Program-made: the position numbers and the translations under genes
The notes under the pieces: generated by a model
What the model was told of the DNA's origin: nothing
What the model saw: only the letters and a program-made list of their open reading frames with translations
Database searches by the model: none
NCBI GenBank assembly: GCA_028714875.1
Contig: JAQTLN010000029.1
Location: 1-39,601 of the forward strand
Source: Gallionellaceae bacterium
Lineage (GTDB): Bacteria > Pseudomonadota > Gammaproteobacteria > Burkholderiales > Thiobacillaceae
DNA length: 39,601 bases
Direction: 5' to 3'
Shown here: positions 10,560 through 37,574 of the stretch, one piece after another
Layout of the letters: every line of letters starts with the position of its first letter
Numbering within the stretch: position 1 is the first letter of the stretch

Positions 10560-10581
10560 ACGACTCTCTGGAGTAAGTGTG

Positions 10582-18763: not shown

Positions 18764-19324
18764 ATGATCCGCAGCAACCCCAACGGCGACATCCCCGTCG
18801 TCCATGAATCCGCCTTCGTCGACCCCACCGCCATCCTGTGCGGCAAGGTCATCGTCGGGGAGAACGTCTTTATCGGCCCCTACGCCGTGATCCGCGCCGA
18901 CGAGGTGGATGAACAGGGCGGCATGGAGCCCATCGTCATCGGCGCCGATTCCAACATCCAGGACGGCGTGGTGATTCACTGCAAAGCCGGCGGCGGCGTA
19001 ACCATCGGACTCGGCAGCTCGATCGCCCACCGCTCCATCGTGCACGGCCCCTGCACGGTCGGCGACAACGTCTTCATCGGCTTCAACTCGGTGCTGTTCA
19101 ATTGCAACGTCGGCGACGGCTCCGTGGTGCGCCACAACTCGGTGGTGGAAGGCTGCACCGTGCCGCCCGGCTTCTACATCCCCTCCGCGACCAACATCCA
19201 CTCCGACGCCGAACTCGCCACCATCACCCCAGTCACCCCCAACCAGACCGGCTTCTCGGAAAGTGTCGCCCAGGCCAACAAGGAACTGGTGAAGGGCTAC
19301 AAGCGGATCAGGAACGAGTTCTGA
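18764..19324 (+). CDS. Gamma-class carbonic anhydrase, copy 1
   Basis: A 186-residue left-handed beta-helix protein that should trimerise and interconvert CO2 and bicarbonate. The three zinc histidines are present: H72 in VVIHC and H89/H94 in SIAHRSIVHGP, with the 5-residue spacing seen in Methanosarcina Cam (H117/H122). An acidic loop (DEVDEQGGMEP) stands where Cam has its proton-shuttle glutamate. The C-terminal helix (SESVAQANKELVKGYKRIR) also resembles Cam and the CcmM head. The ATG at 18764 is chosen by alignment with copy 2 at 28705, which it matches at all but about 14 residues. Confidence 0.9.
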   Translation: MIRSNPNGDIPVVHESAFVDPTAILCGKVIVGENVFIGPYAVIRADEVDEQGGMEPIVIGADSNIQDGVVIHCKAGGGVTIGLGSSIAHRSIVHGPCTVGDNVFIGFNSVLFNCNVGDGSVVRHNSVVEGCTVPPGFYIPSATNIHSDAELATITPVTPNQTGFSESVAQANKELVKGYKRIRNEF

Positions 19325-22669: not shown

Positions 22670-24034
22670 TCACCCCATCTCCTCCCCATACTTCTTCAAC
22701 TTCCGCCACAGCGATACCCGGTCGATGCCCAGCATCTGCGCGGCGAGGGTCTGGTTGCCGTGGGCTTCTTCCAGGACCCAGAGGATGTAGTCGCGCTCCT
22801 GTTCTTCCAGAGGGATGACCTTGCCTTCGCGGCGGCGGAAAGCGCGGATGCTGAGGTCGCGCAGGTCGTCGGGGAGGTGGGCGGCTTCCAGGGTGTCGCC
22901 CTGGCAGATGGCGACGCCACGCTCGATGATGTTTTCCAGTTCGCGCACGTTGCCGGGGAAGTCGTAGGCCTTGAGCAGGGCGAGGGCTTCGTCGGAGATC
23001 GTCCGCAGCGATTTGCCCATCAGGGGCGCGGCGCGGTCGAGGAAGTGCTGGGCCAGCAGCGGGATGTCCTCGCGTCGTTGCGAGAGCGGCGGAATGTGCA
23101 GGTTGACGACGTTGAGGCGGAAATAGAGGTCCTGGCGGAAACGGCCGTCGGCCACCCAGGACTTCATGTCGCGGTTGCTGGCGGCGATGAAGCGCACGTC
23201 CACTTTCACCGGCTTGGTGCCGCCGAGTGGCAGCACTTCCTTTTCCTGGACGGCGCGCAGCAGCTTGACCTGCATGGCGGGGGACATTTCCGTGACTTCG
23301 TCGAGGAACAGGGTGCCGCCGTCAGCGGCGACCAGCAGGCCGGTCTTGCCGATGGCGCCGGTGAAAGCGCCTTTTTCGTGGCCGAACAGTTCGTTGGCGA
23401 GCAGTTCCTCATTGAAGGCGCCGCAGTTCACGGCGAGGAAGGGGCCGCCGTTTTTGCCGGCCCCGCGGCCGCTGTGCTCGTGCAGACAACGCGCGAACAA
23501 TTCCTTGCCGGTGCCGGATTCGCCGGTGATGAGGACATTGCAGCCGGTGGGGGCGATCTGGCGCGCCATGTCGAGCAACTTCTGCATGCCGCCATCGCGG
23601 GTGATGACGCGGGTGCGGCCTGCAAACGCGTCGAGCTGCGCGCGCAAGGCCTTGTTCTCCCGCTTCAGGCGGACCTTCTCCAGCGCCTCGGCCACGGTCT
23701 GGCGCACTTCATCGAGACGGAACGGCTTGGCGATGTAGTGGAATGCGCCTTCCTTCATCGCTTCGATAGCGGTTTCCAGGGTGGCGTGGCCGGTGATCAT
23801 GATGACTTCGGTATCCGGATGCTGTGCCTTGCAGCGGCGCAGCAGGGTCATGCCGTCGACCTTGTCCATTTTCATGTCGCTGAGCACCAGGTCGAAGGGC
23901 TGGCCGTCGAGCAGGTCGAGCGCGTGGCTGCCGCTTTGCGTGGCGGTGATCTGGTAACCCTCTTTGCTCAGCACATGTTCCAGGTTGCGTAGGGCAATGC
24001 GTTCGTCGTCGACAAGCAGGAGGCGGGCGGTCAT
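22670..24034 (-). CDS. NtrC-type sigma54-dependent response regulator
   Basis: A 454-residue activator from the ATG at 24034. The receiver domain (residues 1-120) has phospho-acceptor D53 in LVLSDMKMDKVDG and the KPF lysine. The AAA+ domain (about 140-370) has Walker A GESGTGKE, the sigma54-contacting GAFTGA loop, Walker B GTLFLDEV and the arginine-finger region. A Fis-type helix-turn-helix ends the protein (NQTLAAQMLGIDRVSLWRKLKKYG). It follows the histidine kinase gene and is presumably its partner. It probably acts at the sigma54 promoter at 25695. An upstream in-frame ATG at 24058 is less likely because it lies in a repeat. Confidence 0.93.
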   Translation of the reverse strand: MTARLLLVDDERIALRNLEHVLSKEGYQITATQSGSHALDLLDGQPFDLVLSDMKMDKVDGMTLLRRCKAQHPDTEVIMITGHATLETAIEAMKEGAFHYIAKPFRLDEVRQTVAEALEKVRLKRENKALRAQLDAFAGRTRVITRDGGMQKLLDMARQIAPTGCNVLITGESGTGKELFARCLHEHSGRGAGKNGGPFLAVNCGAFNEELLANELFGHEKGAFTGAIGKTGLLVAADGGTLFLDEVTEMSPAMQVKLLRAVQEKEVLPLGGTKPVKVDVRFIAASNRDMKSWVADGRFRQDLYFRLNVVNLHIPPLSQRREDIPLLAQHFLDRAAPLMGKSLRTISDEALALLKAYDFPGNVRELENIIERGVAICQGDTLEAAHLPDDLRDLSIRAFRRREGKVIPLEEQERDYILWVLEEAHGNQTLAAQMLGIDRVSLWRKLKKYGEEMG

Positions 24035-24045
24035 GGGTGGTGTCG

Positions 24046-24100
24046 GTAGCGCCGGCATCCTTGCCGGCGGGGTTTGGAAAAAGCCGGCTGGAAGCCGGCG

Positions 24101-24104
<4 letters not shown>
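24046..24104. repeat. GCCGGC palindromic repeat (family 2) between kinase and regulator
   Basis: GTAGCGCCGGC at 24046 and GCCGGCGCTAC ending at 24104 are inverted ends, with an inner GCCGGCTGGAAGCCGGC palindrome. The element provides the TAG stop codon of the histidine kinase gene on the minus strand and fills the gap before the regulator ATG. Confidence 0.75.
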
Positions 24105-25594
<1,490 letters not shown>

Positions 25595-25603
25595 GGGGAG
25601 AAG

Positions 25604-25621
25604 TGTAACAGCGGTGTTGCA
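25604..25621. promoter_or_regulatory. Dyad upstream of the sigma54 promoter, candidate activator site
   Basis: TGTAACA-GCGG-TGTTGCA is an inverted repeat with six of seven matching arm pairs. It lies about 75 bases upstream of the -24 element and just beyond the histidine kinase start codon. That is a usual place for an NtrC-type activator to bind. Binding is inferred. Confidence 0.4.
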
Positions 25622-25694: not shown

Positions 25695-25710
25695 TGGCAC
25701 GCTTGCTGCT
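25695..25710 (+). promoter_or_regulatory. Sigma54 (-24/-12) promoter
   Basis: TGGCACG-CTTG-CTGCT matches the consensus TGGCACG-N4-TTGCT at all but one position. It has the invariant GG and GC in exact spacing (10 bases between them). Transcription would start near 25720, just before the small ORF at 25744. A sigma54 activator is encoded divergently next door. Confidence 0.65.
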
Positions 25711-25923: not shown

Positions 25924-26295
25924 ATGAAACGCCGCATCGTTGTCGCCCTGCGGCCGGTTTCCCCGGTGGAACGCCTGCTGTCCGTGGGCGCGTCGTTGTG
26001 CCGCCGTCTGGAGGCCGAACTGGAAGTGCTGGCCGATCCGGAACGGCCGGACTGGGCCGAACTGGAATCCCGCCTGGCGGCGCTGGAACACGATGGCCTT
26101 GACTGCCGCCTGACGCCGGCGCCGGAGCTCGATGCCCGCCATGTGGTGGAACACGCGCGGCGCCACGAATGCGTGACTTCGGTGGTGGTGGGGCGGCCGG
26201 CGGCCTGGGCGAACGACAGCTCCAATCCCTGGGCGAAGCTGGAATGCCCCCTGGTCGCCGCTTCCGATCACCCCGATTTGCCCAAAGAGCAATAA
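25924..26295 (+). CDS. UspA-like single-domain protein
   Basis: A 123-residue protein, MKRRIVVALRPVSPVERLLSVG at its start. The strand-helix order and the segments RIVVALRP, ASLCRRLEAELEVLA and HECVTSVVVGRP fit a diverged universal stress protein fold. The usual ATP-binding GxxG(9x)GS pattern is not clear, so nucleotide binding is doubtful. It lies in the sigma54-driven cassette ahead of a permease and another UspA gene. Function unknown. Confidence 0.65.
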   Translation: MKRRIVVALRPVSPVERLLSVGASLCRRLEAELEVLADPERPDWAELESRLAALEHDGLDCRLTPAPELDARHVVEHARRHECVTSVVVGRPAAWANDSSNPWAKLECPLVAASDHPDLPKEQ

Positions 26296-26343: not shown

Positions 26344-26673
26344 ATGTCCGCAAGCCACGCCAGCCTGGGCAAGACCCTGTTTTGGGGCGGCATCACCGCC
26401 GCGCTTTACTTTTTTTTGTTCCATTACGCCGATGATTTCCTCCACCTTGCCCACACCACGCTGGATGCCTGTGTCGTGACTCAGGACGGCATGAAAACCA
26501 ATTATTTCAGCCATGCCACCCCGGAACTGTGCACGGCACGGGGCGGCTCGTTCATTCCCGGCACCTGGTGGTTCGTCCTGGCGCCCATCGCGATGGCCTT
26601 CGCGCTGTCCTACGCCCACGGCATCTTCACCGGCCTGTTCTGGGACGTGGTCGGCCTGAACGCAAAAAAATAA
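26344..26673 (+). CDS. Small membrane protein beside the TauE/SafE permease
   Basis: A 109-residue protein with two hydrophobic segments (about residues 10-28, WGGITAALYFFLFHYAD, and 78-95, WWFVLAPIAMAFALSYAHG) around a soluble loop that contains two cysteines (C43 and C63). The loop may face the periplasm. GGAG lies about ten bases before its ATG. It is 10 bases upstream of the permease gene and probably works with it. I do not recognise a named family. Confidence 0.72.
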   Translation: MSASHASLGKTLFWGGITAALYFFLFHYADDFLHLAHTTLDACVVTQDGMKTNYFSHATPELCTARGGSFIPGTWWFVLAPIAMAFALSYAHGIFTGLFWDVVGLNAKK

Positions 26674-26683
26674 GGAAAACGAC

Positions 26684-27775
26684 ATGGATCACAGTATGGA
26701 ACTCATCAATTTCATCGACCTGAACGTCACCACGGCCATCATTCTGATTCTGGTCGGCTTCGTCGGCGGCATGGTGTCCGGCTTCATCGGCTCCGGCGGC
26801 GCCTTCGTGCTGACCCCGGCGATGATGACCCTGGGGGTGCCCGGCATCGTCGCGGTAGCCTCGAACATCTGCCACAAGTTTCCCAAGGCACTGGTGGGCT
26901 CGGTCAAACGCCACAAGTACGGCCAGGTGGACGTAAAGCTGGGCCTGGTGCTGGGCGTGTTCGCGGAGGCGGGCGTGCTGGTCGGCAAGCACGTGATGAC
27001 CGGCATCAAGAACAGCTTCGGCGCGGTCGGCACCGACCTCTATGTGTCGGTGGTGTTCATCATCACCCTGGCCATCGTCGGCACCTTCGTGTTCAAGGAC
27101 TATCGCAAGCTCAAGGCGATGGGCGAGGAGGAGCAATCCAAAATGGACCTGACCCGGATTGCGCGCTGGGTCCAGTCCGTGAAGATTCCCGGCACCATGA
27201 TCTATTCTCACGCCGCCAAGTCGGAACTGTCGGTGCTGTTCATGATCCCGATCGGCTTCTGCACCGGTTTCCTGGCTTCGGCCATCGCCGTGGGCGGCTT
27301 CATCGGCGTGCCGGCGATGATCTATATCCTCGGCGTGCCGGCAATCATGGCCAGCGCGACGGAACTGGTGATCGCCTTCGTCATGGGCCTGGGCGGCACC
27401 TTCTTCTACGGCCTCGAAGGCGTGGTGGACATTCGCCTGTCCATGCTGATCCTGATGGGATCACTGTTCGGCATCCAGATCGGCGCCATCGGCACCACCT
27501 ACGTGAAGGACTATCAGGTCAAGTTCACCATGGCGGTGATCATGCTGACCGTGCTGTTCTCGCGCTTCTTTTATGTTCCGGGCTATCTCGGCAAGCTGGG
27601 CATGATCGAGCCGCTGCCCGAGGCAACCGTAAAAATGCTGAAAATGGCGGGTGACGGCGTATTGTTCCTGGCCTTGTTCCTCGGTGCCTACACCGTCATA
27701 TCCGCGCTGCTTCAGGGCATGAAAGAACATAAGGAAAGACAATCCGTAAGCGCCCGCAATGCCGTGGCCGACTGA
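26684..27775 (+). CDS. TauE/SafE-family anion permease
   Basis: A 363-residue integral membrane protein with about eight hydrophobic segments. The repeated family motif is seen twice: LVGFVGGMVSGFIGSGGAFVLTP in the N-half and IGFCTGFLASAIAVGGFIGVPA in the C-half. A hydrophilic central loop (EEEQSKMDLTRIARW) joins the halves. Members export sulfite, sulfoacetate or related organic anions. A sulfur-related role would fit a thiotroph, but the substrate is not deducible. It lies between the small membrane protein and a tandem UspA gene. Confidence 0.88.
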   Translation: MDHSMELINFIDLNVTTAIILILVGFVGGMVSGFIGSGGAFVLTPAMMTLGVPGIVAVASNICHKFPKALVGSVKRHKYGQVDVKLGLVLGVFAEAGVLVGKHVMTGIKNSFGAVGTDLYVSVVFIITLAIVGTFVFKDYRKLKAMGEEEQSKMDLTRIARWVQSVKIPGTMIYSHAAKSELSVLFMIPIGFCTGFLASAIAVGGFIGVPAMIYILGVPAIMASATELVIAFVMGLGGTFFYGLEGVVDIRLSMLILMGSLFGIQIGAIGTTYVKDYQVKFTMAVIMLTVLFSRFFYVPGYLGKLGMIEPLPEATVKMLKMAGDGVLFLALFLGAYTVISALLQGMKEHKERQSVSARNAVAD

Positions 27776-27793: not shown

Positions 27794-28630
27794 ATGACCG
27801 CACTATCTGAAAACGGGATGCTCAAGCGTGTCCTGGTCGCCACCGACGGTTCCGACTATTCCGCCGGCGCCATCCGCACCGGCGTGGCCCTGGCCAAAGC
27901 CAACGGCGCCCAACTGATCGGCCTGTCCATCGCCTTGTACAACCCGGAATACAGCACCCTGGTGCCGAACCTGGCGGAAGAGGCGGAAAAACGGGCGCGC
28001 GGGGCGCTCGAATCCTTTATCGCCGAAGCGGGCGAAGGCGCCGAGGCGGTGACCATCGAAGCCGGCGACCCATACACAGGCATCCTGGAAGGCGCCAAGG
28101 CCCAACAGGCCGACGTCATCGTCATCGGCCGCCGCGGCAAACGCGGCCTGGCGCGCATGATGGTGGGCGACGCCACCGCCAAAGTCATCGGCCATGCCCA
28201 TTGCGCCGTGCTGGTGGCGCCGCGCGCCGGGCACCTCTGGGAAAAATCCGTGCTCCTGGCCACCGATGGCTCCGCGCACAGCGAAGCGGCCGCCAGCGCC
28301 GCCGGCCATCTGGCCAAGCAGGCCGGCCTGCCGGTCACCGTGGTTTCCGTGGTCACCAGCAGCCACAGCCCGGCTCGCCGCCAGGAAGCTCAGGATGCCG
28401 TCATCGCCAAGGTGCTCAAGCTCAAGAACATGGGCGTGGCGGCCGAGGGCAAGGTCGTGGAAGGCCGCCCGGACGAGGCCATCGTCAAGGCCGCCGAGGA
28501 CGTCGGCGCGGATCTGATCGTGATGGGTAGCCACGGCCGTACCGGGCTGATGAAGGCGCTCCTGGGCAGCGTCGCCGAGCGGGTCATCGGCCAGGCGGTG
28601 TGCCCGGTGCTGGTGATAAAGCCCCAGTAG
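27794..28630 (+). CDS. Tandem universal stress protein
   Basis: A 278-residue protein made of two UspA domains (about 1-145 and 148-278). Each has the nucleotide-binding tail: VIGRRGKRGLARMMVGDATAKVIG in the first and VMGSHGRTGLMKALLGSVAERVIG in the second, both ending in an LV strand. ATP-binding tandem UspA proteins respond to energy or redox stress. The gene follows the permease by 18 bases with AGAGGAG before its ATG, and it ends at a strong terminator. Confidence 0.92.
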   Translation: MTALSENGMLKRVLVATDGSDYSAGAIRTGVALAKANGAQLIGLSIALYNPEYSTLVPNLAEEAEKRARGALESFIAEAGEGAEAVTIEAGDPYTGILEGAKAQQADVIVIGRRGKRGLARMMVGDATAKVIGHAHCAVLVAPRAGHLWEKSVLLATDGSAHSEAAASAAGHLAKQAGLPVTVVSVVTSSHSPARRQEAQDAVIAKVLKLKNMGVAAEGKVVEGRPDEAIVKAAEDVGADLIVMGSHGRTGLMKALLGSVAERVIGQAVCPVLVIKPQ

Positions 28631-28704: not shown

Positions 28705-29265
28705 ATGATCCGGCGCAATCCCAGCGGGCACGTGCCCCAGGTTCACGAAACCGCCTTCGTCGACCCCACCGCCATTCTTTGCGGCAAGGTTATCGTCCAG
28801 GAAAACGTCTTCATCGGCCCCTACGCCGTGATCCGCGCCGACGAGGTGGATGAACAGGGCGACATGGAGCCGATCATCATCGGCGCCGATTCCAACATCC
28901 AGGACGGCGTGGTGATTCACTGCAAAGCCGGCGGCGGCGTGACCATCGGACTCGGCAGTTCGATCGCCCACCGCTCCATCGTGCACGGCCCCTGCACGGT
29001 CGGCGACAACGTGTTCATCGGCTTCAACTCAGTGCTGTTCAATTGCAGCGTCGGCGACGGCTCCGTGGTGCGCCACAACTCGGTGGTGGAAGGCTGCACG
29101 GTGCCGCCCGGCTTCTACATCCCCTCCGCGACCAACATCCACTCCGACGCCGAACTCGCCACCATCACCCCGGTCACCCCCGACCAGGCCGGCTTCTCGG
29201 AAAGCGTCGCCCAGGCAAACCTCGAACTGGTGAGGGGCTACAAGCGGATACGCAACGAGTTCTGA
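28705..29265 (+). CDS. Gamma-class carbonic anhydrase, copy 2
   Basis: A 186-residue protein with the same beta-helix, zinc histidines (H72, H89, H94) and acidic loop (DEVDEQGDMEP) as copy 1. The two differ at about 14 positions, half in the first 32 residues; the middle is nearly identical in DNA too. The ribosome site is weak (TTGGGAA), and no clear promoter is seen between it and the terminator at 28661-28692. It is the last gene before the hyf-like cluster on the same strand, separated from it only by a minus-strand regulator and a repeat. Confidence 0.9.
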   Translation: MIRRNPSGHVPQVHETAFVDPTAILCGKVIVQENVFIGPYAVIRADEVDEQGDMEPIIIGADSNIQDGVVIHCKAGGGVTIGLGSSIAHRSIVHGPCTVGDNVFIGFNSVLFNCSVGDGSVVRHNSVVEGCTVPPGFYIPSATNIHSDAELATITPVTPDQAGFSESVAQANLELVRGYKRIRNEF

Positions 29266-29656: not shown

Positions 29657-31714
29657 TTGTCAATAGAATCAAATTCGATTTCCCCTTCAGCCCTCCACTT
29701 GCCTCCCTCTTTCGCCTTGTCCGCAGCCGGTAACGTCGCGTTGGCCTGGGGTGGCGTGCTGTTCTGGCTATGCCTGGGTTTTGCCGCCCTGTTCCTGCAA
29801 CGCGCGCGTGGGCTGAACGATCTGATTTTTCCGCTCGGTGCCTTGGGCGCGCTATTCATGGCCGGCGTCGGCATCGCCGGCGTGCTGGGGACGCCCACCG
29901 CCATCGTGTTGCCGATCGGCCTGCCGGACCTGCCCTTCCACCTGCGCCTGGACCCGCTTTCGGGCTTCTTTCTGACCTTGCTGGGCGGCGCCGCATTCGG
30001 CGTGACGCTGGTCGCCTGGGGCTATTTCAGGAGTCTGGAATCCGGCCCGCTAGCCCTGATCGCGCTCTGGTATCACCTGTTCCTGGCCGGCATGGCGACG
30101 GTGCTGCTGGCCGACGATGCTTATGCCTTCATGGTGGCCTGGGAGGTGATGGCGCTGTCCTCCTACTTCCTGGTTACCAGCGCCCACGATCAGCCGGAAA
30201 TTCGACGCGCCGGCTTCCTCTACCTGTTGATCGCCCACGTCGGCGCCGTCGCGTTGCTGCTGTGCTTCGGCGTGCTGCAAGGCGGCGCGGGTGACTACAC
30301 CTTCAACAGCATGCGTCTGGCGGAAACCACACCTTACTGGGCCTCGGTCGCCTATCTGCTGGCCCTGTTCGGTTTCGGCGCCAAGGCCGGCCTGGTGCCC
30401 CTGCATGTGTGGCTGCCGGAGGCGCACCCGGCCGCGCCCTCGCCGGTTTCCGCCCTGATGTCGGGCGTGATGCTGAAAACCGCCATCTACGGCCTGCTGC
30501 GCGTTACCTTCGATCTGCTCAACATCCAGCTCGCCTGGTGGGGCACCCTGGCCCTGGCGCTGGGCCTGATCAGCGCGCTCTACGGCGTCATCTTCGCCGC
30601 CGTGCAGTCGGACATGAAGCGCCTGCTGGCCTGGTCCTCGATCGAAAACATCGGCGTGATTCTGGCCGGTTTCGGCCTCACCCTGATCTTCCACACCGAC
30701 GGCAAAGGCGCCCTGGCCGCGCTGGCGTTGACCGCGACGCTCTACCACGCGCTCAACCACGCCTTCTTCAAGGGTCTGCTGTTCACCGGCGCCGGCGCGG
30801 TGCTGCACACCACCGGCGAACGCAACATGGACAAGCTGGGCGGCCTGATGCGCGTCATGCCCTGGACCGCCTGGCTGACCCTGATCGGCGCGCTGGCCAT
30901 CGCGGGCCTGCCGCCACTCAACGGCTTCGTCTCGGAATGGCTGTTGTTGCAGGCTTTTCTGTTTACCCCCGGCCTGAATCAGCCCTACCTGAACATGCTG
31001 ATTCCGGTGGCCACCGCCGCCGTGGCCCTGGCGGCGGCGCTGGCCGCCTATGTGATGGTGAAGTTTTTCGGCGTGACTTTTCTCGGCGTGACCCGCTCAG
31101 GTGTCGTCGCGCAGGCCCATGAAGCGGGCTGTCGTGAGCGTATCGGCATGATCTGGCTGGCGGCGGGCTGTGTCCTGCTGGGCTTGTTCCCGGCCCAGGT
31201 GATCGGCTGGCTGGCGCCGGTGGCGCGGCAGTTGACCGGGCACACCCTGCCGAATGACGGTAATTGGCTGCTGCTGGCGCCGTTGGATGCCGAACGCGCC
31301 AGCTATGCGCCACTGCTGTTTCTCGCCGTGGTGGCGGCGACGCTGCTGCTGGTATTCGTTTGGGTGCGCCGCGTCTATCACGGCCATGTCCGCCATGCCG
31401 CCCCATGGGATTGCGGCTATCCGGAACAGGACGCGCGCATGCAGGACACGGCCGAGGGCTTCGGCCAGCCGATCCGGCATATCTTCAGCGCCTTCATGGG
31501 CGTGGAACGGGAAGAGCCCGACCCGTTCGACCGCCAGCCGCGCCATAGCAGCGCAACACTCGACCAGATCTGGTTCTTCGTTTACCTGCCCATCGCCCGG
31601 CTAAGCAACTGGATCTCGGCTCAGTTCGGGCGCCTGCAACACGGCAGCATCCAGTGGTATTTGATCTACAGCTTCGCCACGCTGATTTTCTTGCTGGTTT
31701 TCGTGACGGGATGA
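29657..31714 (+). CDS. hyfB: HyfB-like proton-pumping membrane subunit
   Basis: A 685-residue NuoL/M/N-type antiporter subunit with about 14-16 membrane helices. Key channel residues are conserved: E in MVAWEVMALSSYF, K in FGAKAGLVPLHVWLPEAHP and the LYHALNHAFFKG helix. It belongs to the membrane arm of group-4 hydrogenase-like complexes. No ATG stands near the beginning; the TTG at 29657 gives a short hydrophilic start, and a TTG at 29717 is an alternative. The last 60 residues include a soluble loop (YPEQDARMQDTAEGFG) typical of HyfB. Upstream lie the operator and the RHH gene. Confidence 0.88.
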   Translation: MSIESNSISPSALHLPPSFALSAAGNVALAWGGVLFWLCLGFAALFLQRARGLNDLIFPLGALGALFMAGVGIAGVLGTPTAIVLPIGLPDLPFHLRLDPLSGFFLTLLGGAAFGVTLVAWGYFRSLESGPLALIALWYHLFLAGMATVLLADDAYAFMVAWEVMALSSYFLVTSAHDQPEIRRAGFLYLLIAHVGAVALLLCFGVLQGGAGDYTFNSMRLAETTPYWASVAYLLALFGFGAKAGLVPLHVWLPEAHPAAPSPVSALMSGVMLKTAIYGLLRVTFDLLNIQLAWWGTLALALGLISALYGVIFAAVQSDMKRLLAWSSIENIGVILAGFGLTLIFHTDGKGALAALALTATLYHALNHAFFKGLLFTGAGAVLHTTGERNMDKLGGLMRVMPWTAWLTLIGALAIAGLPPLNGFVSEWLLLQAFLFTPGLNQPYLNMLIPVATAAVALAAALAAYVMVKFFGVTFLGVTRSGVVAQAHEAGCRERIGMIWLAAGCVLLGLFPAQVIGWLAPVARQLTGHTLPNDGNWLLLAPLDAERASYAPLLFLAVVAATLLLVFVWVRRVYHGHVRHAAPWDCGYPEQDARMQDTAEGFGQPIRHIFSAFMGVEREEPDPFDRQPRHSSATLDQIWFFVYLPIARLSNWISAQFGRLQHGSIQWYLIYSFATLIFLLVFVTG

Positions 31715-31754
31715 AGGACATGCGAACCATCCACGGCACGCTGACTGGGGCGAC

Positions 31755-31920
31755 TTCCCCCTTTCCCAAAGGGGGGCTGAGGGGGATTTGGCGACGCGTA
31801 CCTGGTTGCCGGCTGCGGAAATCCCCCCTAGCCCCCCTTTGGAAAAGGGGGGGACTCGGCTCTCCGCGGCCGCAAGCGTTTCCACCATTGCCGCATACAG
31901 CGCCTCGAAAAAGGGGGGAG
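31755..31920. repeat. C/G-rich palindromic repeat, copy B, between hyfB and hyfC
   Basis: Two inverted C/G arms, then a roughly 60-base module GGACTCGGCTCTCC...GCCGCAAGCGTTTC...CATACAGCGCCT that recurs almost exactly at 33790-33845. It ends in AAAAAGGGGGGAG, whose purine run serves as the hyfC ribosome site. Confidence 0.85.
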
Positions 31921-31922
31921 CG

Positions 31923-32867
31923 ATGACCACCGGCATCCTCCTGCAACTCCTTCAGACCCTCGCGGCCATCCTGCTGGCGCCGCTGTTGCTGGGCTGGGTC
32001 AACCAGTGCCGCGCCTGGTTGCAGGGGCGTGGCGCGCCGCCGTTGACGCAGCCGTACCGGGTGCTGCGCAAGCTATTCCACAAGGATGCGGTGATCGCCC
32101 ACAACGCCAGCCCCTTGTTCCGCTTCGCGCCCTACATGATCTTCGCCTGCATGGCGCTGGCCGCCGGCATCGTGCCCACTTTCGCCAACGATCTGCCCTT
32201 TTCCCCGGCGGCGGACGCCATTGCCCTGGTCGGCGTGTTCGCCCTAGCGCGGGTATTTCTGGCATTGGCGGCGATGGACATCGGCACCGCTTTCGGCAGC
32301 CTCGGCGCGCGCCGCGAGATGCTGGTCTCCTTCCTGGCGGAGCCGGCGCTGTTGATGGTGTTCTTCACCGCCAGCCTGATCTCGCATTCCACCGCGCTGC
32401 CCACCATCGTCGAGACCCTGGCGCACAAGCACTTCGTCATCTACCCGAGCATGGCCTTCGCGGCGGTAGCGTTCTGGATGGTGTCCACCGCCGAGAACGC
32501 GCGCATTCCGGTGGACAACCCCTCCACCCACCTGGAACTGACCATGATCCACGAGGCCATGATCCTGGAATATTCGGCGCGCCACCTGGCGCTGATCGAG
32601 TGGGCGGTGGCCTTGAAGCTGTTCACCTATTCGGCGCTGGGCATCGCCCTGTTCCTGCCCTGGGGCATTGCCGCGCGCGGCGACCTTGCCGCGTTGCCGC
32701 TGGCGGCCCTGACGCTGCTCGTGAAGATGATGGCCGGTGGCGCCGCCCTCGCCCTGCTGGAGGCCGTTTCCGCCAAGCTGCGCCTGTTCCGCGCGCCGGA
32801 GTATCTCGGCACCGCGTTCATGCTGGCGGTGCTGGGCATGCTGACGCATTTTTTGCTGGAGGCCTGA
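31923..32867 (+). CDS. hyfC: HyfC-like membrane subunit (NuoH type)
   Basis: A 314-residue, eight-helix membrane protein of the NuoH/HyfC/HycD family, which links the membrane pumps to the soluble arm and, in complex I, lines the quinone site. The conserved acidic segments TAENARIPVDNPSTHLELTM and HEAMILEYS are seen, along with the N-terminal QPYRVLRKLFHKD. The ATG at 31923 is chosen since upstream codons lie in a repeat. It takes its Shine-Dalgarno from that repeat (AAGGGGGGAG). Confidence 0.93.
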   Translation: MTTGILLQLLQTLAAILLAPLLLGWVNQCRAWLQGRGAPPLTQPYRVLRKLFHKDAVIAHNASPLFRFAPYMIFACMALAAGIVPTFANDLPFSPAADAIALVGVFALARVFLALAAMDIGTAFGSLGARREMLVSFLAEPALLMVFFTASLISHSTALPTIVETLAHKHFVIYPSMAFAAVAFWMVSTAENARIPVDNPSTHLELTMIHEAMILEYSARHLALIEWAVALKLFTYSALGIALFLPWGIAARGDLAALPLAALTLLVKMMAGGAALALLEAVSAKLRLFRAPEYLGTAFMLAVLGMLTHFLLEA

Positions 32868-32892
32868 GATGAGGTCGAGATTTCGTAGCACC

Positions 32893-32971
32893 GTAGGATG
32901 CGGTGAGGTACGAACCGCATCACTCCGCGCGGGCGTGGTTGATGCGGTTCGCCGCGCTCACCACATCCTAC
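32893..32971. repeat. GTAGGATGCGG inverted repeat, copy 2 (family 3), between hyfC and hyfE
   Basis: GTAGGATGCGGTGAGGTACG and the inverse TGATGCGGTTCGCCGCGCTC...CATCCTAC form a full element. It can fold as one long hairpin in the operon mRNA between two membrane-subunit genes. It ends 28 bases before the hyfE ATG. Confidence 0.85.
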
Positions 32972-32999
32972 GCGGGATCACCTCGACAGGAGCGTCGCA

Positions 33000-33662
33000 A
33001 TGGCGCTGACCTACCACCTGCAAGTCGTCAACCTGTTGGCCGCGCTGTTGCTGCTGATCTCCTTCGCCATGCTGTCGCAGCGCCGCATCGTCAATCTGGT
33101 GACGCTGTTCGCCTGGCAGGGCGCGGCCTTGTCCGCGTCCACCGCCATCGTCGCCTGGTCCACCGGGCAGCATCACCTGTACTGGTCGGCGGGCCTGACG
33201 CTGTTGCTCAAGGTCATCGTCATGCCCTGGTTCTTCTACCGCCTGGTGCGCCAACTGGACGTGAATCGCGATGTGGAAGCGATGCTCAACATCCCCACCA
33301 CCATGCTGATCGGCATCGCCCTGGTGATCTTCGCCTTCAACCTGGCGCTGCCGATCTCGCAGATGTCCGGCACGGTGACGCGCTCCACCCTGGGCATCGC
33401 CATGGCCTGCGTGCTGCTCGCCTTCCTCATGATGATTACCCGGCGCAAGGCCATCACCCAGGTGATCGGCTTCCTGGCGATGGAAAACAGCCTGTTCTTC
33501 GCCGCCACCAGCGCCACCTACGGCATGCCGCTGGTGGTGGAAATGGGCGTGGCGCTCGACGTGCTGGTCGGCGTGTTCGTACTGGGCATCTTCTTCTTCC
33601 AGATCCGCGAGACCTTCGATTCGCTGGATCTGCGGCACATGGAAAAGCTGAAGGAGCGATGA
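33000..33662 (+). CDS. hyfE: HyfE-like membrane subunit (NuoK-like)
   Basis: A 220-residue, six- to seven-helix membrane protein of the HyfE family. Its C-terminal half resembles NuoK, with acidic residues inside helices (FLAMENSLFFAATS, VVEMGVALDVL). The sequence ends in a soluble tail (RETFDSLDLRHMEKLKER). AGGAG lies eight bases before the ATG. In group-4 complexes it sits between the large pumps. Confidence 0.9.
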   Translation: MALTYHLQVVNLLAALLLLISFAMLSQRRIVNLVTLFAWQGAALSASTAIVAWSTGQHHLYWSAGLTLLLKVIVMPWFFYRLVRQLDVNRDVEAMLNIPTTMLIGIALVIFAFNLALPISQMSGTVTRSTLGIAMACVLLAFLMMITRRKAITQVIGFLAMENSLFFAATSATYGMPLVVEMGVALDVLVGVFVLGIFFFQIRETFDSLDLRHMEKLKER

Positions 33663-33691
33663 GGATGCCGGCGCGGACTTTGTTGAGAGCG

Positions 33692-33860
33692 GCCCCCCCC
33701 TTTATCAAAGGGGGGGCGGGGGGGATTTCTACGGCGGTGGCTCAGGCAAACGTTGCCAAATCCCCCCCGGCCCCCCTTTGGAAAAGGGGGGGACTCGGCT
33801 CTCCCCAGCCGCAAGCGTTTCAACCATTGCCGCATACAGCGCCTTTCCAAAGAGGGGAGA
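33692..33860. repeat. C/G-rich palindromic repeat, copy C, between hyfE and hyfF
   Basis: Same structure as copy B: inverted C/G arms (CCCCCCCC...GGGGGGG), a CAGGCAAACGTTGCCAAATCC spacer also seen in copy A, then the GGACTCGGCTCTCC...CATACAGCGCCT module. It ends in AGAGGGGAGAAAGG followed by a seven-codon frame (33865-33888) that stops just before the hyfF ATG. Confidence 0.85.
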
Positions 33861-33891
33861 AAGGTATGCATGACGGGGCGGTGCACTGATC

Positions 33892-35346
33892 ATGGAAATC
33901 TACTGGCTACTCGGCATCCCACTGGCCGGCGGCGTGTTTCTCGCGCTCTGGGGCAACCGGCGCCATGCCCCGGAGATCAATGCCCTGTTCAGTTTGTTGA
34001 CGCTGATCGCGGCGGCCGCGCTCACGGCGCGCATCGTCGAACACGGGCCGATCATCGTCGGCGGCGAAGGCTGGTTTTTCATCGACTCGCTCAACGTCTT
34101 CCTGGTCGCGCTCACCGCTTTCGTGGCTTTCACCACGGCGCTGTTTTCCCGCCCCTACATGCGTATCGAACAGGAACACGGCCGCCTCAACGCTCAGCGC
34201 CTGCGTCTCTATCACAGCAGCTATCAGGTGTTCATCGCCGCCATGCTGCTGGCGCTGACCACCAACAACATGGGCATTTTGTGGGTGTCGATGGAAGCCG
34301 CCACCCTGGCCACCGTGCTGCTGGTTTCGCTGTACCGCACCCCGGCCTCGCTGGAAGCGGCCTGGAAGTATTTCATCCTGTGCGGCGTCGGCATCGCCCA
34401 GGCTTTGTTCGGCACCATCCTGCTCTACTTCGCGGCGGAGAAAGTGCTGGGCAGCGGCGGCACCGCGTTGCTCTGGACCCACCTCAACGGCGTCAAGGCG
34501 CAACTGGAACCGACCGTATTGCAACTGGCCTTCGTGTTCCTGCTGCTGGGTTACGGCACCAAGGTCGGCCTGGCGCCCTTGCACAACTGGCTGCCGGACG
34601 CCCATGCCGAAGGCCCCACCCCGGTCTCCGCCGTACTTTCCGGCCTGTTGCTCAACGTCGCCCTGTATGCGGTGATGCGCTCCAAGGTGCTGGTGGACGG
34701 CGCCCAGGGCAACAACATGGCGGGCGGACTGATGATGGGTTTCGGCCTGCTTTCCGTGGTGCTGGCCGCTTTCCTGATCAAGCGCCAGAGCGACGTGAAG
34801 CGGATGTTCGCCTACTCCTCGATCGAACACATGGGCCTGATTACCTTCGCCTTCGGCATGGGCGGCCCGGTGGCGAGCTTCGCCGGATTGCTGCACATGA
34901 CGATGCATTCGCTCACCAAGTCCGCCATCTTCTTCGCGGTGGGGCACGCCACGCAGAAGGCCGGCACCCAGTCGATGGACGGCATCCGCGGCCTGATCAA
35001 GACCAACCCGACCATCGGCTGGGGCCTGATGTTGGGCAGCATCGCCATCCTCGGCGTGCCGCCGTTCGGCGTGTTCGCCAGCGAGTTTCTGATCATTACC
35101 ACCGCCATGCACGAGCACGCCTGGGCCACACCCTTCCTGGTCGTCGCCCTGGGCGTGGCCTTCGCCGCGATCTTCGGCAAGGTGCAGCCGATGGTGTTCG
35201 GCGAAACCGAGTTGCCCCGCCTGCCGCACCAACCGGCCCTGGCGCCGGTGTTCATCCACCTTGGCCTGGTGCTGATGCTGGGGTTGTTCATCCCGCCTTA
35301 TCTGGCGACGTGGTACCGGCAGGCGGCGGCGTTGCTCGGAGGGTGA
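33892..35346 (+). CDS. hyfF: HyfF-like proton-pumping membrane subunit
   Basis: A 484-residue NuoL/M/N-type subunit with about 13-14 membrane helices. The pump residues are present: E in LWVSMEAATLATV, K in GTKVGLAPLHNWLPDAHAEG and K in HMTMHSLTKSAIFF. It thus gives the complex a second antiporter module besides HyfB. The ATG at 33892 has weak upstream pairing and may be coupled to a seven-codon leader frame in the preceding repeat. It is followed by another repeat. Confidence 0.92.
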   Translation: MEIYWLLGIPLAGGVFLALWGNRRHAPEINALFSLLTLIAAAALTARIVEHGPIIVGGEGWFFIDSLNVFLVALTAFVAFTTALFSRPYMRIEQEHGRLNAQRLRLYHSSYQVFIAAMLLALTTNNMGILWVSMEAATLATVLLVSLYRTPASLEAAWKYFILCGVGIAQALFGTILLYFAAEKVLGSGGTALLWTHLNGVKAQLEPTVLQLAFVFLLLGYGTKVGLAPLHNWLPDAHAEGPTPVSAVLSGLLLNVALYAVMRSKVLVDGAQGNNMAGGLMMGFGLLSVVLAAFLIKRQSDVKRMFAYSSIEHMGLITFAFGMGGPVASFAGLLHMTMHSLTKSAIFFAVGHATQKAGTQSMDGIRGLIKTNPTIGWGLMLGSIAILGVPPFGVFASEFLIITTAMHEHAWATPFLVVALGVAFAAIFGKVQPMVFGETELPRLPHQPALAPVFIHLGLVLMLGLFIPPYLATWYRQAAALLGG

Positions 35347-35360
35347 AACCAGGTAGACAC

Positions 35361-35437
35361 GTAGGTCGGGTTAGCGCAGCGTAACCCGACATTTGCAGCG
35401 ATGTCGGGTTACGCGAAAAGACGCTAACCCGACCTAC
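35361..35437. repeat. GTAGGTCGGGTTA inverted repeat (family 4), between hyfF and hyfG
   Basis: GTAGGTCGGGTTAGCGCAGC...GTAACCCGACAT and the inverse ATGTCGGGTTACGCG...GCTAACCCGACCTAC form a nested palindrome about 77 bases long. Elements of this kind are widespread in proteobacteria. It could form a long mRNA hairpin. Confidence 0.85.
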
Positions 35438-35471
35438 GAAGGGCGCACATGGAGTTGGCTAGAGAGACACG

Positions 35472-37019
35472 ATGAAGATCGACGCACAAGACTGGAATCT
35501 CACCCTGATCGCCCCGCATATCTGGCGCGGCGGGATCGACGCGGCCACGCTGCCGGCCATCGCCCAGGCGGTGAAGGACGAAGGCGGGCAACTGGTCGCG
35601 TTGTGGGGTTCCGACGAGCGGCATCTCGATGGCGGCTACGCCCTGCACGCCGCCTTCATCACCGCCAATGGGCTGGCCTGGATCAGCGCGGCGCTGGCGG
35701 CAGACGCCCCCGCCCATCCCGATCTGGCGGCGATCTTCCCGCAGGCCGGCCGCATGCAGCGCGCCAATTTCGACCTGCTCGGCATCCGGGCCGAAGGCGC
35801 CGAGGACACCCGCAAATGGCTGCGCCACGTCGCCTGGGCCGAAGACGAATTCCCGTTGCGCAAGGATTTCCAATCCGAAATCCGAAATCCGAAACCCGAA
35901 ATTACCGACGCCTATCCCTTCCTCCGCGTCGCCGGCGAAGGTGTCCATGAAATCGCGGTCGGCCCCATCCACGCCGGCACCATCGAGCCGGGACATTTCC
36001 GCTTTTCCTGCATCGGCGACCGCGTCCTCAAGCTGGAACAGCGCCTGGGCTACACCCACCAGGGGGTGGAAAAACGCTTCGAGGGCCGCGACCTCGCCAG
36101 CGGCGCCAGGCTCGCCGGGCGAGTTTCCGGCGACAGCCACATCGCCTTCGCCTGGGCCTACTGCATGGCGGTGGAGCAGGCGACCGACAGTACCGTCCCG
36201 CCGCGCGCGCTCTGGTTGCGCGCCCTGTTCCTGGAAATCGAACGGATCGCCAACCACCTGGGCGACCTCGGCTATCTCGGCAACGACGTCGCCCTCTCCT
36301 TCGGCTTCATGCAGTTCTGGCGCCTCAAGGAAGACTGGCTGCGCCTCGCGGCGAAGCTGTTCGGCCATCGCTACCTGTTCGATCGCATCGTCCCCGGCGG
36401 TGTCGCGGTCGATCTCGACGCCGCCGGCCAGCGCGAACTCGCGGCGCTGGCCGACCGCGTCGAAATGGAAGTGCGCGAACTCAAGGCCGTCTACGACGAA
36501 CACGCCACCCTGCAAGACCGTTTCGCCAATACCGGCATCGTCACACCGGCGCTGGCCGCGCGCCTGGGCCTCACCGGTCTGGCCGGCCGCGCCAGCGCCC
36601 AGGCCTGGGACGCGCGCGCGCAGTTTCCCCAGGCACCCTACGATCAACTGGGCGTGACCATGGCCACCGCCCGCAAGGGCGACGTGCTGGCGCGTTCGGA
36701 AGTGCGCTTCGGCGAAATCCACGAATCCCTGCGCCTGATCCGGGAAATCATGAAACGCTTGCCCACCGGCGCCCTCCAGATGCCGCTCGTGGCGGTGCAA
36801 GCGGCGTGCGAGGGTATCGGCTGGGTGGAAGGCTGGCGCGGACAAGTGCTGGTGGCGCTGCGCATCGGCGACGACGGCAAGCTCGACCGCGTCCACCCGC
36901 ACGACCCCTCCTGGCAGAACTGGCCGCTCCTGGAGGTCGGCGTGCTGGGCAACATCGTTCCCGATTTCCCGCTGATCAACAAATCGTTCAACCTCTCTTA
37001 CAGCGGGCAAGACTTATGA
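35472..37019 (+). CDS. hyfG: HyfG-like large subunit (NuoC-NuoD fusion) without Ni ligands
   Basis: A 515-residue soluble subunit. Residues about 1-150 resemble NuoC/HycE-N, and 160-515 the NuoD/hydrogenase large subunit (YTHQGVEKRFEGRD, LWLRALFLEIERIANHLGDLG). The four Ni-binding cysteines of hydrogenases are replaced. The CxxC at the first site is S219-G-D-S222, and the second-site DPCxxC at the C-terminus is NLSYSG (S509, G512). So a NiFe centre cannot form; this is the hallmark of Ehr-type complexes. A stretch EIRNPKPEI (about residues 137-145) comes from a short in-frame repeat in the linker. Confidence 0.9.
   Translation: MKIDAQDWNLTLIAPHIWRGGIDAATLPAIAQAVKDEGGQLVALWGSDERHLDGGYALHAAFITANGLAWISAALAADAPAHPDLAAIFPQAGRMQRANFDLLGIRAEGAEDTRKWLRHVAWAEDEFPLRKDFQSEIRNPKPEITDAYPFLRVAGEGVHEIAVGPIHAGTIEPGHFRFSCIGDRVLKLEQRLGYTHQGVEKRFEGRDLASGARLAGRVSGDSHIAFAWAYCMAVEQATDSTVPPRALWLRALFLEIERIANHLGDLGYLGNDVALSFGFMQFWRLKEDWLRLAAKLFGHRYLFDRIVPGGVAVDLDAAGQRELAALADRVEMEVRELKAVYDEHATLQDRFANTGIVTPALAARLGLTGLAGRASAQAWDARAQFPQAPYDQLGVTMATARKGDVLARSEVRFGEIHESLRLIREIMKRLPTGALQMPLVAVQAACEGIGWVEGWRGQVLVALRIGDDGKLDRVHPHDPSWQNWPLLEVGVLGNIVPDFPLINKSFNLSYSGQDL
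35869..35903 (+). repeat. Short ATCCGAA tandem repeat inside hyfG
   Basis: The sequence CAATCCGAAATCCGAAATCC continues with GAAACCCGAAATT, making three to four near-copies of a 7-8-base unit. It encodes SEIRNPKPEI in the linker between the NuoC-like and NuoD-like domains and keeps the frame. Confidence 0.75.
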
Positions 37020-37040
37020 CTTACCGGATTACGGACTGAC

Positions 37041-37574
37041 ATGGTCATGCGCCTCATCCTCCGCAAGGTTCTCAAGACCGGCATCGTCTCGCAAGCCGCG
37101 CCCGAGGCCGATCTCTCCCCGCGCGCGCGGGAGCAGACGTTGCACGCGGAGATACTGAAAGTATTCGGCGACGCGGTCACCATCCGCCATGTCGATGCCG
37201 GCTCCTGCAACGGCTGCGAACTGGAAATCCACGCCCTCGGCGGGCCGCATTACAACATCGAGGGCCTGGGTGTGAAATTTGCCGCCAGCCCGCGCCATGC
37301 CGACATGCTGCTGGTCACCGGCCCGGTTTCGCGCCATCTGGAAACCGCCCTGAAGCGCACCTACGACGCCATCCCGGAACCGAAATGGGTGGTGGCGATG
37401 GGCGATTGCGCCGCCGGTTGCGGCATGGCCGGCGGCCTGTTCGGCGAGAACTACGCCTCCCTCGGCAAGGTTTCCAACGTCATACCCGTGGATGTCGAAG
37501 TACCCGGCTGCCCACCCACGCCCACCGCCTTGCTCGCGGGCATCCTGGCGGCGGTCAGCGGCGGGCGCCAGTAA
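37041..37574 (+). CDS. hyfI: HyfI-like FeS small subunit (NuoB type)
   Basis: A 177-residue subunit of the NuoB/HyfI family carrying one [4Fe-4S] cluster. The cysteines are intact: C56 and C59 in GSCNGCELE, C123 in MGDCAAGCG and C157 in VPGCPPTP (C127 is extra). The CNGCE pattern is that of hydrogenase small subunits rather than complex I (which has CC). In such complexes this cluster passes electrons to the site beside NuoD/HyfG. The gene ends the cluster; no HyfA, HyfH or formate dehydrogenase gene is in the window. An alternative start is ATG 37047. Confidence 0.92.
   Translation: MVMRLILRKVLKTGIVSQAAPEADLSPRAREQTLHAEILKVFGDAVTIRHVDAGSCNGCELEIHALGGPHYNIEGLGVKFAASPRHADMLLVTGPVSRHLETALKRTYDAIPEPKWVVAMGDCAAGCGMAGGLFGENYASLGKVSNVIPVDVEVPGCPPTPTALLAGILAAVSGGRQ

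Follow-up and report, generated by a model that had tools for sequence, protein, structure and literature searches.

What does a complex built on the plan of hydrogenase 4, without the nickel ligands of a hydrogenase, do in the middle of a carbon-capture island? The question is raised by a 39,601-nt stretch of contig JAQTLN010000029.1, hereafter the window, from a Gallionellaceae bacterium (genome G000 in our comparisons). Six intact open reading frames (ORFs) on one strand, hyfBCEFGI, occupy positions 29657–37574. Judged from sequence, they encode an Ech-hydrogenase-related (Ehr) complex, which is akin to complex I and to group-4 hydrogenases and whose parts are of known kinds. Related genomes carry the DAB (DabA–DabB) pump in the same operon slot, and we lean towards the view that Ehr in this family acts as the ion-translocating engine of a SulP/carbonic-anhydrase inorganic-carbon uptake system, standing in for DAB. 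The six genes are as follows.

29657–31714, + strand: HyfB, antiporter-like, NuoL/M kin (NF005086, hydrogenase 4 subunit B, above cut-off; better-scored start at 29699)
31917–32867, + strand: HyfC, NuoH kin (PF00146)
33000–33662, + strand: HyfE (NF008556, below cut-off; no Pfam match)
33892–35346, + strand: HyfF, antiporter-like (NF005045, hydrogenase 4 subunit F, above cut-off)
35472–37019, + strand: HyfG, with 30-kDa and 49-kDa domains and without nickel cysteines (alignments, predicted model; closest solved fold HycE of formate hydrogenlyase)
37041–37574, + strand: HyfI, proximal [4Fe-4S] subunit with C56, C59, C123 and C157 (PF01058)

Pfam and NCBIfam models support these assignments, HyfE being the exception for want of a Pfam match. 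The top NCBIfam model for HyfG was NuoD, and none of the ten models listed for it reached its cut-off. As in other Ehr complexes, antiporter-like, HyfC-like and HyfE-like membrane subunits are combined with a small subunit in a single operon. A preliminary description of the window had read these genes as a membrane arm with two antiporter-like subunits joined to HyfG and HyfI, which the intact ORFs, the family models and the Ehr loci found elsewhere bear out. All six genes stood in order on one strand at 100 of 123 Ehr loci, so the unit is not a chance assembly; the remaining 23 were incomplete, and many of these sit on short contigs (the set counts a few genomes twice; L030 and L050 are one genome, G012). 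By eye in an alignment, HyfB and HyfF retain the Glu of transmembrane helix (TM) 5 and the Lys of TM7 and TM12 of E. coli HyfB/HyfF, which we take to be pump residues. HyfG of a Thiobacillus sp. locus (L049) is 76% identical to the window protein, with similar flanking genes, and on this basis we place the window's genome in Thiobacillaceae, probably in Thiobacillus.

Ehr and DAB cassettes share one operon slot

The family (f1) comprises 25 of 41 relatives compared, and DabA was called by PF10070, which found it in 11 of the 41. Fourteen family genomes carried Ehr (G000, G002, G003, G007, G008, G009, G010, G011, G012, G014, G016, G018, G021 and G023) and seven carried DabA (G001, G004, G006, G013, G017, G022 and G024); four carried neither (G005, G015, G019 and G020) and none carried both (Fisher p = 0.0007, uncorrected for kinship). 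Seven of the 25 genomes are incomplete (58–89%). The 18 that are at least 90% complete comprised 11 with Ehr, five with DabA, two with neither and none with both (p = 0.0025, uncorrected for kinship), and the corresponding value across all 41 relatives was 0.0036.

Each of the seven family DAB loci had DabA behind SulP, in the order SulP, a protein of 482–488 aa, DabA, and proteins of ~510, 505 and 490 aa (in G001 the last two genes, of 505 and 490 aa, lie beyond the fetched stretch). A window-type Ehr (HyfG at least 68% identical) was present in 13 of the 23 genomes of the genus, and 11 of these loci have sequence upstream of hyfB, the contigs of G014 and G018 ending there. SulP stood one or two genes upstream of hyfB in eight of the 11 (G007, G008, G009, G010, G011 on a second contig, G012, G016 and G021), and a gamma carbonic anhydrase (gamma-CA) directly upstream in three (G000, G002 and G012, the last having SulP too). 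G003 had neither, and carried csoS2, csoSCA, cbbQ and cbbO on the other side of hyf.

The likeness extends to three genes further upstream, which in the window are:

22670–24058, − strand: NtrC/AtoC-type sigma-54 response regulator (RR; NCBIfam AtoC/NtrC-type models below cut-off)
24101–25594, − strand: sensor histidine kinase (HK), RR partner, its neighbour at Ehr and DAB loci alike (G013 gave no HK match)
25924–26295, + strand: p25924, 123 aa, universal-stress-protein-like by eye, no Pfam family

With like flanks, different cassettes followed: RR–HK, p25924 and SulP preceded hyfBCEFGI in G007 and G016, and RR(–HK), p25924 and SulP preceded the DabA cassette in G001, G004 and G013. RR, HK and p25924 of the window's kind were found ahead of Ehr in the window, G007, G010, G011 (HK and p25924 seen), G012, G016 and G021, and ahead of DAB in G001, G004 and G013. 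In the other family DAB loci the RR–HK pair was less similar (G022, G024) or did not occur in the examined stretch (G006, G017). The RR was 84–90% identical at the same place in five Ehr and three DAB sister loci, one of them partial, and p25924 was 72–87% identical at the same place across nine loci of both kinds.

The exchange occurred repeatedly. A SecA tree of the 25 family genomes implied at least five Ehr/DAB switches; among eight independent pairs differing in Ehr, DAB differed in the opposite sense in five, in the same sense in none, and not at all in three. An RpoB tree of 17 family genomes (G002, G004, G005, G007, G008, G010, G013 and G021 gave no RpoB match) implied five switches, with five opposite pairs, none the same and two without difference. 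The sign test gave p = 0.0625 on each tree. Four switches were seen in the SulP tree, where Ehr-linked and DAB-linked copies interleave, and four in the poorly resolved RR tree. The swapping of Ehr and DAB within a single SulP-led operon seems to be new: among the matches listed from the open-licence literature, no paper tying Ehr to SulP or DAB was recognised.

As to the composition of the family DAB cassette (L185:8036–17437), Pfam matches in one locus, that of G013, placed four antiporter-like proteins around DabA rather than a single DabB, with a CsoSCA-like carbonic anhydrase (CA) facing them. The genes of the remaining DAB loci of the family are of similar length.

A shared promoter region precedes both cassettes

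Two candidate regulatory elements lie between HK and p25924 in the window:

25604–25621, + strand: palindrome TGTAACA-N4-TGTTGCA, candidate RR site, one exact match in the window
25695–25710, + strand: sigma-54-like −24/−12 promoter, TGGCACG-N5-TGCT, sole exact match in the window

Taken in the window alone, neither element is significant (for the sigma-54-like site, 1.25 matches with at most one mismatch are expected by chance), and it is conservation across regions that carries the argument. We compared ten HK–p25924 regions, seven from Ehr and three from DAB loci. The sigma-54-like site aligned in all ten; nine scored 9/10 against the consensus used and G001 scored 8/10, and TGGCAC was intact in eight. 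Only 3 to 14 of 500 single-base shuffles per region reached the score of the site, compared with 68 of 500 for G001. Upstream of it, the palindrome was exact in eight regions and differed at a single base in those of G007 and G016. Exact copies of the palindrome were present in ten of 256 loci, amounting to seven other genomes, all at the HK/p25924 region.

A conserved site replaces the nickel ligands of HyfG

HyfG carries SGDS at 219–222 and NLSYSG at 507–512 and ends in ...YSGQDL-stop; the E. coli protein reads VCGICG and DPCYSC at the equivalent places and continues into a C-terminal tail, which the window protein lacks. Its three cysteines (180, 231 and 446) all lie away from the nickel positions, and the four nickel-ligand cysteines of a group-4 [NiFe] hydrogenase large subunit are thus missing. 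HyfI retains its cluster cysteines C56, C59, C123 and C157. The complex has no nickel site of the known type. Both results agree with the preliminary description, which had judged a nickel site impossible in HyfG and had seen all iron–sulfur cysteines in HyfI. Loss of the nickel cysteines is not new in itself, since passages of earlier papers already note it for Ehr (PMC6349859) and for Nitrospira hyf (PMC12542776).

We aligned 39 HyfG sequences (alignment A2), picked for likeness to the window protein and therefore not unbiased; L097, with a stop codon in its stretch, and L104 were omitted. H196, G220, D221, D272 and Y510 were invariant in all 39. Position 219 was Ser in 35, position 222 Ser or Thr in 39, and position 509 Ser in 35; Cys occurred at 219 in one sequence, and in none at 222, 509 or 512. 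Given these invariant residues, the rebuilt site is conserved rather than decaying, and the alignment indicates that conserved serine, aspartate and tyrosine residues take the place of the nickel site. Against Thermus complex I, H196 and D272 aligned with the pocket His and Asp, and the position of the pocket Tyr was Gly220; we take these three to be the quinone-pocket residues of the 49-kDa subunit.

The AlphaFold2 model of HyfG (predicted local distance difference test (pLDDT) 83, predicted template modelling score (pTM) 0.88) was closest to 7z0s_E, HycE of formate hydrogenlyase, with a template modelling (TM) score of 0.82 by query length, followed by NuoCD of E. coli and Aquifex (0.70–0.75). 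pLDDT fell below 50 in parts of 149–166, 182–195 and 493–515, and because of the last of these the model is uninformative on the C-terminal half of the site.

Consistent with the preliminary description, which reported no HyfA, HyfH or formate dehydrogenase, E. coli HyfA, HyfH, HycB, HycF, HypA–E, HycI and FdhF had no match at E 1e-5, a result that covers the window but not the remainder of the genome. The window therefore lacks the formate dehydrogenase and HyfA/HyfH that mark a formate hydrogenlyase. Nor does the operon, hyfBCEFGI only, include the N-module and NuoI-type subunit of complex I, there being no HyfH/HycF-like match in the window; DabA, the mark of DAB, had no PF10070 match in the window's genome. 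The same electron-transfer and maturation queries were run on 125 loci including the window, 123 of them Ehr loci. HypA–E and HycI matched only in E. coli control loci (the rest of the window's genome again lying outside this search). FdhF matched in L055 and in L159, which spans a further complex-I-like cluster of the window's genome with its surroundings. Matches to HyfA or HycB came from L055 and L029, and those to HyfH or HycF from L068, L004, L091, L029, L158 and L159. The rarity of HyfA, HycB, HyfH and HycF matches indicates that hyfBCEFGI normally stands without an electron-transfer subunit.

Proposed mechanism and comparison with known systems

We infer a shared job from the shared slot, and propose the direction of ion flow, the ion used, the electron source and physical contact with carbonic anhydrase on the same conditional footing. 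Ions would move through HyfB and HyfF, coupled via HyfC and HyfE to the HyfG–HyfI site, in a process driven by redox chemistry or by the proton-motive force (PMF). The complex might make an H+ or Na+ gradient used by the adjoining anion transporter; or it might drive one-way CO2 hydration together with a gamma- or CsoSCA-like CA, as is thought for DAB and cyanobacterial NDH-1. A bolder version, which we offer tentatively as one possibility, makes Ehr of this type a third complex-I-derived inorganic-carbon pump beside those two. With SulP and a gamma- or CsoSCA-like CA as partners, its nickel-free HyfG–HyfI site and antiporter arm would power one-way hydration of CO2 or the import of bicarbonate, and this pump would have been exchanged with DAB at least five times in the family, partly under one sigma-54 switch.

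The cyanobacterial NDH-1 CO2-uptake complexes, which carry Cup proteins and ferredoxin-binding subunits, resemble the proposed system in being complex I relatives thought to drive CO2 hydration. They differ in that no Cup proteins or ferredoxin-binding subunits were seen in the window, where the CA would be a separate gamma-CA. DAB has complex-I-type antiporter subunits and fills the same operon slot in sister species; in contrast, the window's genome has no DabA, and its complex has HyfG/HyfI with cluster cysteines. Passages of PMC13144422 describe CO2 hydration by DAB2 as PMF-driven and independent of electron transfer, and mention ferredoxin-dependent CO2 hydration by NDH-1.

E. coli Hyf/Hyc shares gene order and fold with the window complex (identity 38% for HyfB, HyfF and HyfI and 31% for HyfG), whereas the latter has no nickel cysteines, tail, HyfA, HyfD or HyfH, and no Hyp genes nearby. 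Coppi (2005) and Marreiros (2013) reportedly treat Ehr. Among Ehr complexes, that of Geobacter sulfurreducens (GSU0739-45) has NuoL-like, HyfE-like, large and small subunits and a role described as never investigated in that species (passages of PMC7894505). Like the window complex, it has lost the Ni/Fe ligands. It was, however, linked by its authors to formate, whereas the window has no formate dehydrogenase and its operon is tied to SulP, CA and the DAB slot. The available text of PMC6349859 sets Ehr apart by its absent Ni/Fe-coordinating residues and links it to formate dehydrogenase. Neither that text nor the passages of PMC7894505 give a reaction for Ehr, in line with the earlier statement that none is established.

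Ehr complexes are common, yet annotations and papers treat them as hydrogenase 4, as a group 4 hydrogenase or as part of hydrogen metabolism. In excerpts from the literature, hyf genes of Nitrospira are noted to be without the nickel motif (PMC12542776), Nitrospira hyfBCEF is read as possible H2 oxidation (PMC13109103), and Ehr is listed in a table (PMC6688271). Hyf and hydrogenase do not occur in the available portions of a paper on Thiobacillaceae carboxysome loci (PMC9164163), nor in those of PMC10880623 and PMC6458275. The carbon role, if true, would caution against taking hyf clusters of this kind as a sign of hydrogen metabolism. Since Ehr here changes places with a pump whose function is known, behind the same promoter region, the locus offers the first concrete assay known to us for Ehr function, namely growth of Thiobacillus at low CO2 and its uptake of 14C.

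Limits of the carbon link and alternative explanations

A number of observations weigh against a carbon-uptake role. Within the family, the sign test cannot fall below 0.0625 because only five pairs are informative, and SulP is not adjacent to hyfB in G003 or the window. Among the 41 relatives, Ehr and DabA occur together in G029, which lacks RuBisCO; G028 combines DabA with a distant HyfG (28%) that was left out of the window-type Ehr count. With no electron-input subunit in the operon, a redox-driven pump would have no visible donor.

Carbonic anhydrase is scarce beside Ehr more widely. Sequence reaches 2.5 kb or more upstream of hyfB in 85 Ehr loci, and only nine of these (two of them one genome) had a CA of any sought kind in that stretch; no beta-CA like Can of E. 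coli stood beside any of the 123 Ehr loci. A CsoSCA-like CA was present in three of 276 genomes sampled from the class and beside Ehr in one. Loci of Variovorax, Cupriavidus, Burkholderia and Rhizobium plasmids had no match to carbon-uptake references beside Ehr. Same-strand SulP within 2.5 kb upstream of hyfB was found in 15 of the 85 loci, two of the matches being very weak (24% identity) and L030 and L050 counting one genome twice.

In the class sample (Ehr called at E ≤ 1e-70, RuBisCO large subunit at E ≤ 1e-25), Ehr was present in 37 of 276 genomes, one of them (G171) at only 258 bits, within the range of other HyfG types. RuBisCO accompanied it in 21 of the 37 carriers and occurred in 120 of the 239 other genomes (p = 0.48), leaving 16 Ehr carriers without RuBisCO; tracking of RuBisCO at class level was therefore rejected. 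DabA was found in 65 of the 276, and eight genomes held both against 8.7 expected (p = 0.84), so there is no Ehr–DabA exclusivity outside the family. As a general rule it was likewise rejected, L078 having both complexes side by side. The preliminary description had proposed co-occurrence of this hyf subtype with cso or sbtA genes as a check; in the genus, csoSCA was present in six of 13 Ehr genomes and six of ten others, and tracking of carboxysomes was rejected. Its suggestion of a coupling to inorganic-carbon uptake is supported within the family, by operon position, the shared promoter region and the DAB-for-Ehr swap, but not as a general rule. Given these class-level results, the ancestral job of Ehr need not be carbon uptake; the evidence points to recruitment to carbon uptake in one family, with scattered hints elsewhere, in Candidatus Accumulibacter, Thiomonas, G111 and Acidithiobacillus caldus.

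These class-level counts bear on a general role unrelated to carbon, in which Ehr would be a respiratory ion pump that draws electrons from some low-potential donor, relays them via the HyfI cluster and delivers them at the rebuilt HyfG site to quinone or a different acceptor, its place in the island being an accident. We regard this as rather unlikely. It suits the wide spread of Ehr, including the 16 carriers without RuBisCO, the retained HyfI cysteines and the invariance of HyfG H196 and D272, whose complex I counterparts are quinone-pocket residues. It leaves unexplained the shared SulP operon, the shared promoter and the repeated exchange with DAB; the quinone Tyr position is a Gly, and no donor subunit lies in the operon.

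A role in pH control, with the complex expelling protons released by CO2 hydration and its neighbours concerned with internal pH rather than carbon supply, seems improbable. Such a role has been proposed in passages of PMC3826726 for the Acidithiobacillus caldus hyfBCEFG cluster, which lies beside a beta-CA, was read as H2-evolving and is likened to the window here by its gene neighbourhood. The Mrp-type antiporter cluster beyond Ehr in L049 would fit. Normal H2 evolution is, however, impossible in this type without the nickel site, and the presence of SulP, like the exchange with DAB, speaks for carbon. Least probable of all is a recombination hot spot beside sulP with Ehr and DAB cassettes as cargo of no common function: such a site, which would count against the carbon-uptake role, would likewise give repeated switching, and universal stress protein, TauE and gamma-CA genes shuffle around it too, but both cassettes lie on one strand behind the same promoter region with complex-I-type antiporter subunits, a content so narrow that random cargo is disfavoured.

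The carbon-capture island around the operon

The preliminary description had placed the operon in a CO2-concentrating island beside a gamma-CA, and the gene content agrees. Between 1 and 29 kb lie RbcL, CsoS2 (models below cut-off), CsoSCA, SulP, SbtA, an aldolase and two gamma-CA-like proteins. Two further genes were taken as CbbQ and CbbO on the basis of a GvpN-type ATPase and a VWA match. A 785-aa protein (10579–12936) was considered as DabA and rejected, since it has a VWA domain and was taken as CbbO. Towards hyfB the order is RR and HK (minus strand), p25924, p26344, TauE, Usp, gCA2 and hyfB. The remaining features are listed below.

12933–15041, + strand: SulP with STAS domain (PF00916, PF01740)
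15038–15982, + strand: SbtA-type Na+/bicarbonate transporter (PF05982)
18764–19324, + strand: gCA1, gamma-CA-like paralogue (172 of 186 residues identical to gCA2)
26344–26673, + strand: p26344, putative membrane protein of 109 aa by eye, no Pfam family
26684–27775, + strand: TauE/SafE-family transporter (PF01925), in the position that SulP holds in most sister Ehr loci
27794–28630, + strand: universal stress protein with two Usp domains (PF00582)
28705–29265, + strand: gCA2, gamma-CA-like, with His72, His89 and His94 (NCBIfam CcmM and carbonic anhydrase models below cut-off)

Both gCA1 and gCA2 have His72, His89 and His94, presumably zinc ligands by analogy with Cam and CcmM. The TauE/SafE transporter is a candidate anion, perhaps bicarbonate, transporter. 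G002 has the same TauE arrangement as the window, with p26344 adjoining TauE there too, and G022 has a 38%-identity homologue of p26344 in its DAB locus. Two DAB loci are flanked by TauE as well, accompanied by Usp in L183 and by p26344 in L187.

Other Ehr and DAB neighbourhoods

A protein of ~350 aa resembling the catalytic domain of CsoSCA was found outside carboxysome operons, near four Ehr and three DAB loci among 145 scanned. A beta-CA-like CxDxR motif was checked in the L042 copy. The seven copies are:

L042:11310–12371, CsoSCA-like CA
L039:14719–15783, CsoSCA-like CA
L049:12385–13443, CsoSCA-like CA
L169:7238–8293, CsoSCA-like CA
L185:17567–18616, CsoSCA-like CA
L186:16834–17883, CsoSCA-like CA
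L187:2491–3549, CsoSCA-like CA

In G007, SulP and hyfBCEFGI are followed ~2.6 kb on by the CsoSCA-like CA, and in G111 this CA lies 0.7 kb from hyfG. In Candidatus Accumulibacter sp. ACC003, Ehr is followed ~1.5 kb on by a same-strand DAB cassette, with two called minus-strand ORFs between. Thiomonas L082 has cbbQ- and cbbO-like genes behind hyfI, and Ehr loci of Variovorax, Burkholderia and Rhizobium plasmids adjoin universal stress protein, YoaK or spermidine synthase genes. Beyond the Ehr operon of Thiobacillus locus L049, an Mrp-type antiporter cluster (L049:15366–21126) might supply Na+ for SulP or SbtA; these antiporter genes were considered as DAB and rejected as Mrp-like.

No relative was found in viral contigs. 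The window's genome holds further complex-I-like clusters, one on contig C6 (L158) with NuoD-, NuoB- and antiporter-like genes and a HyfG 30% identical to that of the window, and another on C20. L047 and L072 each carry a tandem pair of divergent Ehr operons, the second HyfG being ~46–47% identical to the window HyfG. The six-gene Ehr of L004, L068 and L091 is directly preceded by a second Ehr-like operon, which includes a 4Fe-4S or HyfH-like part. Within the hyf operon itself, palindromic repeats of ~100 nt, 90% alike, fill the hyfB–hyfC (31757–31920) and hyfE–hyfF (33694–33859) gaps and resemble repetitive extragenic palindromic (REP) sequences or miniature inverted-repeat transposable elements (MITEs).

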